From NCBI RefSeq assembly GCF_040054535.1, contig NC_090780.1, positions 1,146,501-1,210,500 on the forward strand: a DNA stretch of 64,000 nucleotides, written 5' to 3'. Origin of the DNA: Antennarius striatus. Taxonomy: Eukaryota; Chordata; Actinopteri; Lophiiformes; Antennariidae. Made by a program: the position numbers and the translations under genes. The stretch's first letter is position 1. Each line of letters begins with the position of its first letter. This document shows positions 53,501-56,500 of the stretch, piece by piece. Under the pieces are notes generated by a model, which was given only the letters and a program-made list of their open reading frames with translations, did not search any database and was not told the origin of the DNA.

Positions 53501-56500
53501 GACGTTTCTGAGCCCAGACTCCACTGACCAGTCGACCCATCACTGGACTGTTGTTTCCAGGCATGAAGAAAAATCAGGCGCATCATTTGGTTTTGTTGAA
53601 ACAGTAAATTTGCCCTCCTACCCCCTCCAGGGCTTCTTCGAAGCAGTAGAGCCAGTACTCGCGGGCCAGAGCGTCCTCGGTGAGGTCCATGGTGTCTGGG
53701 ATGTAGGAGGAAGGGTCCTGCAGGAGGGGAAGGTTGACCAGCTGTCTCTCCAGACGGTCCATCTCCAACATGTCAAACTGGAGACGACAGAGAGGAGGAC
53801 ACACATGATGAAGAAGAAGATGATGATGATGTCAAAACAGCAGAGAGCCTCCAGGGAGGCAATTGCTAGCAGAGGCTAACAGCTAGCAGAGGTTAACAGC
53901 TAGCAGAGGCTAACAGCTAGCAGTGGTTAACAGCTAGCAGAGGTTAACAGCTAGCAGAGGTTACAGCTAGCAGAGGCTAACAGCTAGCAGAGGTTAACAG
54001 CTAGCAGAGGCTAATGGCTAGCAAAGGTTAGCAGCCCCCGATGTCCTTCACAGGACATGCTAGTCAAAGAATCCCTGATGGACACGAGGGTTCCAGCGTG
54101 ACGCCCGACGTGAGCGAACACGTGTAACGTGTTCTGTGAGCAGCAGCAGCATCAAACCGACACACACAGACGCACACACACACAGACACACACACACACA
54201 GACACACACACACACACACACACTGAAGCAGGCAGACGGGGGTACTTACAGAAAACTGAAGGACAGAGTTTAGTCGACAGACGGATGAGTGGGGGGAGAT
54301 GAAGAGACACGTCACACATGAATACGTTTCTGGTGGGCAGATCTCCATCAAACGTGAAGCTAAGCTCCATCATGAGTGTGAGTGAAATAGACACACCAGA
54401 CAAACACGCCACGTCACATGACCCAGCTTCATGTCTGAGGACGTCCACTCACCGTTCCGCTACGAACGCGCTGCATAGGATTCATGTCAGGGGAAATACT
54501 CATCAGGCCTGAGCTTCCTGCGTAGTTCTCCCCCCAGCTGTACTGGTTCGGATCTGGAGGTCAAGAAGGTCAAGACTTAGGGGATCAGGTGTGTTCTAGA
54601 ACCTTCATGTCCACATTCATTTACACACAAAAATAGTGAAAAATCTTCCCATGCTAAAATCAGTTTGGCGTTTTCAGTGAGCTTGTCGTTACATCCTGTT
54701 GTCTGAACGTACGTCTCTTTCAGGGAATGTGAATGTGTGGGAGTGTCCTTACTGTCCTCCTCGGCCCCCTTCAGGAAGGCTCCAATGGCTCCTAGATAGC
54801 CTTCATGTCTGAGGAACAAGGCTTGAACTTCACCCTGCCAGCAAACAAACAACACCGCCAAGGTGAGAAGATAAGAACCCAAAGTCAGGACCAAGGTGAA
54901 CGGACCACCAGGGGTCTGAGTCCACAGCCAAAGAATCACAGCCCCCTCAGACCACCAGGGGTCTGAGTCCACAGCCAAAGAATCACAGCCCCCTCAGACC
55001 ACCAGGGGTCTGAGTCCACAGCCAAAGAATCACAGCCCCCTCAGACCACCAGGGGTCTGAGTCCACAGCCAAAGAATCACAGCCCCCTCAGACCACCAGG
55101 GGTCTGAGTCCACAGCCGGCTCTGGGGGGTGGCTGTGCAGGAAGTGGCTTTACCTTTGTGAAGAAGTTGATGCTGTATGTGATGGTGTGCATGGTGACGG
55201 GGTGTCCTCGGATGAAGAAGCCTCCAAAGTAAACTCTGGACAGGTTGTGGAGTTTGGCGTACAGGCAGGCTAGCTGTCCGATGTCATTGCTGATCATGTG
55301 GAGTAAACTCTTGGCCATGTCTTCTTTAGAGAACTCTTCAGTTGAGACAAGAGTGAGACACACACGTCCATTTCAGACAAGCAGCTAACGAGGGTTCACA
55401 TCGTGTGTTCATGTTGTAATACGTTCACAGCACAAGGACAATAAAACGTTCAGAGGTCAACTTCCTGCCACCCTTCTGTTTGAATACAGCAGGCCTGAAG
55501 GTGCCTGAAGGACCGATATGTTGAATCAATGTAAAGTTCACGTCAGCGTGATTCTGTCTGACATGGACGGGATCGTGGGTATCACCTTTATCAGCTGTAG
55601 CAGACTTTCCAAAACTGCTTGCAATCAGGTCGCCGGTCAAACCCAAAGAGCCGTAAGAGCCGCCGTAGATGTCTTTGACAAGCATGTCGACACTCGTGTG
55701 CTGCCCTTTGGTGGCCAACTGTAAGAGCTCGTCGAACCTCTGCAGGGAAAAAGAGGGGTCACGCTCACAAGGTCAGGTCAACTGTTCCCACAATCAAGTC
55801 AGTTAACGCACCTGTGTCTTGGTGAGCAATGCTCCGAGGCCCCAGAACGTCCCCCCACCTATGGAGCTGCCCCCTATCCGTTCAAACTTGTCCTCAGATT
55901 CAACCTGTTGAAGAGGGACAGCATCAAACATATACTGTAGATCAGTTATTAGTTGATCAATTGGTTTGTAAAACATCAGAAGATAAACAGAAATGGCAAA
56001 AATGATGTGATTAAATGCATTTTTTGTTTAGCGTGGTCACCAGTCAACGCACTGGGGAGGCTGGAACCAAAGAATGAATGGAGACGAGGTGGTACAAACA
56101 GTTAAAACAACTCAACTACTGATACGGCGGTTACCTTGACTATGGAAACGCCCGAACCAATATTTACAAGCAGGTAAGGGAAGATGTCCGGTTGAGTCAT
56201 CTGAAAGCGAAACTCGGAGTCAGCATGCTTGGCGTACACGAAAGCCTCATGGGGAATGTTCCTCAGCACAAAGTTACAGCCCTTGATGAGGCAGGTCATC
56301 TCATCCTCCTTATCCACTCTAGCACAAAGCAAAGAGTCGGTTAGTCTCCGTCCCCCACAGCCACGGAACAGACTCAACTCGCATCTCAAGGTACCATTAT
56401 CTAGAGGTACTCTATGTTGAGGTACTAGTGTATTTTAATGTACATTGACCTTTTAGTTATCTTCAGCGGTGGACATTAAAGCAACATGAATGTAAATGTA

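Follow-up and report, generated by a model that had tools for sequence, protein, structure and literature searches.

The window analysed here, a stretch of 64,000 nucleotides from the fish Antennarius striatus, contains on its minus strand a complete pank4 gene (58338-47580), whose spliced gene model has 19 coding exons and encodes a protein of 783 amino acids. The model is a single unbroken open frame ending in a stop codon, and all 18 introns are bounded by GT-AG. A Pfam search identified a Fumble (PanK-like) domain, PF03630, at residues 36-365 (E 1.3e-133, profile positions 1-334 of 334), and an ARMT1-like/DUF89 domain, PF01937, at residues 449-758 (E 4e-51). The gene is an ordinary fish orthologue of vertebrate PANK4, in which an N-terminal Fumble domain, resembling type II PanKs, is fused to a C-terminal DUF89/ARMT1-like phosphatase.

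Coding exon 1 (58215-58338, minus strand as all those that follow) opens with the ATG at 58338 and shares the phosphate-1 motif DIGGSLTK with exon 2 (57108-57190), which is followed by exon 3 (56826-57034). Exon 4 (56135-56318) carries Glu145 and the phosphate-2 motif, exon 5 (55812-55904) carries Arg209, exon 6 (55586-55739) the flap residues Tyr256 and Tyr260 together with Ala271, and exon 7 (55154-55335) an Asp and a Phe in the columns of PANK3 residues 300 and 341. The Fumble domain ends within exon 8 (54753-54834), and exon 9 (54453-54553) terminates in the AKT-type motif RVRSGT. Exons 10 (53622-53777), 11 (53017-53129), 12 (52597-52684), 13 (52166-52317), 14 (50031-50086) and 15 (49107-49156) lead to exon 16 (48460-48564), where the phosphatase residues Asp621 (48531-48529) and Asn622 (48528-48526) are encoded, and to exon 17 (48282-48382) with Asp657 (48346-48344); exons 18 (48121-48189) and 19 (47580-47829), the latter including the stop codon, complete the model.

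About 2 kb upstream of pank4, on the same strand, lies a helix-loop-helix frame (60893-60400; Pfam HLH, E 5e-13) that, assigned by eye, looks like a member of the hes/her family. Such a neighbour agrees with the known linkage of pank4 and hes5, already described in the passages available from PMC8320183. We also noticed that the WRPW of this frame is not terminal, as 30 more residues are translated before the next stop; the frame may have lost its stop codon or may belong to an unusual member of the family.

For the phosphatase half of the protein, an earlier note on this DNA had stated that the residues D621, N622 and D657 were present, and this was borne out, as they can be read in the model and align with the DN and the D of Arabidopsis At2g17340 (1xfi). 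Between the two domains, RVRSGT (residues 399-404) is the sole RxRxx[ST] sequence of the protein, and its T404 corresponds by motif to human Thr406. According to the text available of PMC9352595, PANK4 suppresses CoA synthesis via its phosphatase, Asp623 and Asp659 were predicted to be essential and then tested, AKT phosphorylation at Thr406 lifts the suppression, and the human T406 motif is conserved in vertebrates.

The same note had placed Glu and Arg at residues 145 and 209 of the kinase domain, and both assignments held: in the intact model, residue 145 is Glu, encoded by GAG at 56302-56300, and residue 209 is Arg, encoded by CGG at 55880-55878. We asked whether these columns are indeed the catalytic positions of pantothenate kinases. 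When the protein was aligned with human PANK3 (5kpr_A) by phmmer, residue 145 fell on construct position 146, which is E138 in native numbering, and residue 209 on native R207. The numbering offset of 8 used for 5kpr_A gave the right letter at all 10 PANK3 residues named in the literature against which it was checked (E138, S195, R207, Y254, Y258, A269, R306, R325, W341 and E354). Five proteins were also aligned independently with MAFFT, namely fish PANK4, PANK3, the yeast kinase Cab1 (as two stretches beyond its N-terminal part) and two Fumble paralogs from C11 and C17 of the same genome, and all of them have Glu and Arg at the two columns. We also observed that a single base separates GAG from the Val codon GTG and CGG from the Trp codon TGG, the change from CGG to TGG being a CpG transition; the amniote loss of the pair could thus have taken two simple point changes.

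That loss has been published. Citing Yao et al. 2019, the accessible passages of PMC10529755 report Glu138Val/Arg207Trp in "all amniote PANK4s", and those of PMC9352595 state that evolutionary mutations inactivated the PANK4 kinase domain "in amniotes"; these two substitutions are the reason why human PANK4 is called a pseudo-pantothenate kinase (PMC10529755 and PMC8861153, both as excerpted). As the published loss is placed in amniotes, a fish would be expected to show the ancestral state and keep both residues. Glu145 and Arg209 represent the ancestral PanK condition of a known family and not a new enzyme, and they would have been kept because Glu to Val and Arg to Trp presumably arose on the amniote line. 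In an available part of PMC7132775, where medaka pank4 transcripts were measured, the loss is repeated as if general for Pank4, a generalisation that, for the two catalytic residues, fails in at least one fish, the one studied here.

We searched for relatives in two public collections of viral or prokaryote DNA, which say little about this gene: none of the 14 pattern matches in viral_contigs and none of the 91 in genome_contigs was confirmed. In the work of Yao and colleagues, the kinase activity of frog PANK4, in which the pair is present, was reportedly low, and human PANK4 reportedly regained little when both positions were changed back. A search of the literature for pantothenate kinase activity of frog or Xenopus PANK4 returned no papers.

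The Glu/Arg pair is necessary but insufficient for kinase activity, and we also looked at the rest of the kinase site. The pantothenate-contacting or stabilising residues of PANK3 listed in the available text of PMC8366970 are D137, E138, S195, R207, Y254, Y258, V268 and A269; seven of the eight are kept in fish PANK4, and the eighth, V268, is replaced by Ile, as in Cab1. Fish PANK4 also retains the equivalents of R325 and E354, which take part in an acetyl-CoA relay proposed for PANK3 (PMC5882169, as excerpted). Among the cross-interface contacts of a PANK3 activator given in a passage of PMC6199309 are T209, R306 and W341, and all three columns are changed in fish PANK4. The T209 column has Gly in fish PANK4 and in Cab1, the R306 column Cys in fish PANK4 and Tyr in Cab1, and the W341 column Phe in fish PANK4 and Trp in Cab1, PANK3 and both fish paralogs. 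We considered some of these changes as proof of inactivity: T209G and V268I were rejected, Cab1 having Gly and Ile there, and the loss of R306 was weakened as an argument, Cab1 having Tyr.

Disease variants of PANK2 gave a further set of positions, as the portion of PMC7795310 available to us describes their reconstruction in Cab1 and tabulates the effects. All 14 listed PANK2 positions could be mapped to PANK3 numbering by subtracting 200, and PANK3 has the same residue as PANK2 at all of them but I504 and D378, hence at 12 of 14; Cab1 numbering fits five of the listed positions (I287, N290, I291, I294 and A299). Twelve of the positions have variants that are null, severe or mild in yeast, and at 9 of these 12 fish PANK4 keeps the PANK2 residue, having instead Ile at L413, Asp at N500 and Leu at I504. 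The other two positions, N404 and D378, have variants that behaved as wild type, and there fish PANK4 has Lys and Thr. The PKAN site N500 of PANK2 corresponds to N300 of PANK3 and N290 of Cab1, and its column has Asn in Cab1, PANK3, both fish paralogs and the PANK1 and PANK2 chains, whereas exon 7 of fish pank4 encodes Asp. The variant at N500 is Asn to Ile, with a severe effect in yeast (PMC7795310, same excerpt), and Asp is a milder change than this. We infer from the alignments that N300D and W341F are candidates for changes that weakened the kinase ahead of the loss of Glu and Arg.

We then considered how much constraint the kinase domain has retained. Cab1 (two stretches), PANK3 and the C11 and C17 paralogs are all identical at 89 columns, of which fish PANK4 keeps 75, N300D and W341F being among the 14 lost. 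In a set derived from pairwise alignments, fish PANK4 keeps 80 of the 100 columns that are identical in PANK3 and Cab1, so that, by simple draw from this set, the chance of retaining both of any two columns chosen beforehand is about 0.64; retention of the pair alone is therefore unsurprising and gives no signal. Over 263 columns, we counted those in which only one of two proteins has the Cab1 state, and fish PANK4 was ahead in each comparison, with 50 columns vs 19 for PANK3 (p 0.0002), 47 vs 18 for the C17 paralog (p 0.0004) and 49 vs 22 for the C11 paralog (p 0.002). With Cab1 as an outgroup to both proteins compared, these counts would mean less change in the domain of PANK4 than in that of PANK1-3; should PANK4 instead share closer descent with Cab1, they would arise with no difference in rate. 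As far as the alignments go, the kinase domain of PANK4 is not visibly decayed, which favours some function, catalytic or not.

The 548-Mb assembly (42 contigs) was also searched for Fumble domains in six frames, exon by exon, so that the counts are lower bounds. At least 16 Fumble matches were found at three or more places, corresponding to pank4 on C5 and to genes on C11 and C17. The latter two both carry KLDELDCL and YKRVTGT, the contexts of Glu138 and Arg207, and align with PANK3, in pieces, over nearly the whole aligned length. Judged on these matches, the genome has at least two genes of the PANK1-3 type besides pank4, and PANK4 therefore need not supply the kinase step. A further DUF89/ARMT1-like gene was observed at G000:C19:15890699-15891391 (E 1.6e-67); the genome-wide DUF89 search matched on C19 alone, missed the split exons of pank4 itself and so is no census of the family.

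Considering all these data, we favour with a probability of about 0.75 the reading that fish PANK4 is a conserved phosphatase of the CoA pathway, with its AKT motif kept, fused to a kinase domain whose catalysis is weak or vestigial. That the fly orthologue is an active phosphatase although it has no kinase domain (PMC13276073, as excerpted) agrees with this reading. The protein would act mainly as a metal-dependent phosphatase that dephosphorylates 4'-phosphopantetheine and related intermediates, and this removal of phosphate would limit CoA synthesis, with AKT possibly tuning PANK4 at the conserved RxRxxT motif. The kinase domain would still offer a pocket for ATP and pantothenate, and its turnover is probably weak, since residues outside the catalytic pair have already changed in the PANK4 line. 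These changed residues, taken with the low activity that frog PANK4 is said to have, argue for a weak kinase. On the other side, the undecayed domain, the 9 of 12 PANK2 positions kept and the lead in Cab1 states would suit a working kinase and speak against a vestigial one. In addition, human PANK4 rescues some defects of flies lacking the pantothenate kinase Fbl, as stated in a passage of PMC8861153, a result that a pure suppressor of CoA synthesis would leave unexplained.

The earlier note had gone further and proposed a possible bifunctional control point for CoA synthesis in fish, which we take as a hypothesis; in its full form, fish PANK4 would be a working enzyme that makes 4'-phosphopantothenate with one domain and removes 4'-phosphates with the other. 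The observations of the note stand, as the catalytic columns were correctly identified and neither the kinase pair nor the phosphatase residues have been lost; the equivalents of D137, S195, Y254, Y258 and A269 are retained as well. As news they are not supported, the loss having been published as an amniote event (PMC10529755 and PMC9352595, in the passages available). The proposal gains from the closeness of PANK4 to Cab1, which is greater than that of PANK3 or the paralogs, and from T209G and V268I, which are shared with Cab1, the pantothenate kinase that yeast needs. Against it, N300D at the PKAN site and W341F set fish PANK4 apart from Cab1, PANK3 and both paralogs alike, two genes of the PANK1-3 type are present in the genome, and frog PANK4 reportedly has low activity, so that we regard a fully bifunctional enzyme as unlikely. 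A related scenario, in which fish PANK4 would work in two ways as a competent kinase and a 4'-phosphate phosphatase switched by AKT, with amniotes later dropping the kinase half and N300D and W341F representing an earlier weakening, seems to us a rather unlikely one.

Another explanation is that the kinase domain serves as a structural or sensory module, binding ATP, pantothenate or acyl-CoA or pairing with PANK1-3, and thereby steering the phosphatase or a partner with no need for catalysis. The fold and the ligand contacts are conserved, among them R325 and E354 of the proposed PANK3 acetyl-CoA relay (PMC5882169, as excerpted), which would agree with such a role, and unequal pairs of pantothenate kinases have a precedent in apicomplexans (PMC8366970, in the available text). 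Moreover, the persistence of the domain in amniotes after catalysis was lost would call for some non-catalytic reason. However, the PANK3 activator interface contacts R306 and W341 are changed in fish PANK4, and flies manage without a kinase domain, their orthologue lacking it and yet being an active phosphatase (PMC13276073, as far as its accessible passages go); all in all, such a module appears very improbable. Finally, the chance that the pair is an artefact of the gene model or of the alignment, with columns that are not catalytic, is practically nil, as the codons are base-exact, the frame is intact and phmmer and MAFFT give the same columns, and an error in the splicing of the earlier note was likewise ruled out by the full model.

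We also compared fish PANK4 with known systems. With human PANK4 it has in common the Fumble and DUF89 domains, the phosphatase residues, the AKT-type motif and the hes5-like neighbour, while amniote PANK4 is reported to have Val and Trp, a state taken from the passages available of the papers cited above, instead of Glu and Arg. Human PANK3 and the C11 and C17 paralogs share the catalytic Glu/Arg and most of the pantothenate-site residues with fish PANK4, which differs from PANK3 by the added DUF89 domain, by Gly, Cys and Phe at T209, R306 and W341, and by Asp at N300. The top-scoring solved chain for fish PANK4 is that of Cab1 (6uj5), which is alike in Glu/Arg, in Gly at the T209 column and in Ile at the V268 column. 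This chain of 375 residues matches the kinase part only, and it keeps N290 (PANK3 300) and a Trp at the 341 column. By description, plant PANK2, which is an active kinase, has the same kinase-DUF89 architecture as fish PANK4. A DUF89 extension is reported for some plant pantothenate kinases in a passage of PMC6114107.

The kinase half of PANK4, a protein with a reported role in limiting CoA synthesis, clearly exemplifies the loss of catalysis by an enzyme domain. A fish PANK4 with both catalytic residues offers a natural intermediate for the question of which changes cut the activity before the pair itself disappeared. Asp at PANK2 Asn500 and Phe at PANK3 Trp341 are specific candidates that make this question of the order of loss testable.

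The introns of pank4 provided some minor observations. Intron 9 contains a candidate microexon of 6 bases, TTTTCT (54255-54250, minus strand), with TTCAG before and GTAAGT after it, which would add Phe-Ser right after the AKT-type motif and keep the frame. It was the top of 295 acceptor-donor pairs found in the 18 introns by a scan for spacings of 3-27 bases in multiples of three, with rough weights; stricter cut-offs in the same scan gave no candidates, and a literature search for a PANK4 microexon found none. A scan of the sigma-70 type at the promoter was set aside as inapplicable to a fish gene. In intron 14, a minisatellite-like stretch at about 49900-49540 consists of a CCTACCCCTGATC-type repeat that is open in several frames on both strands.
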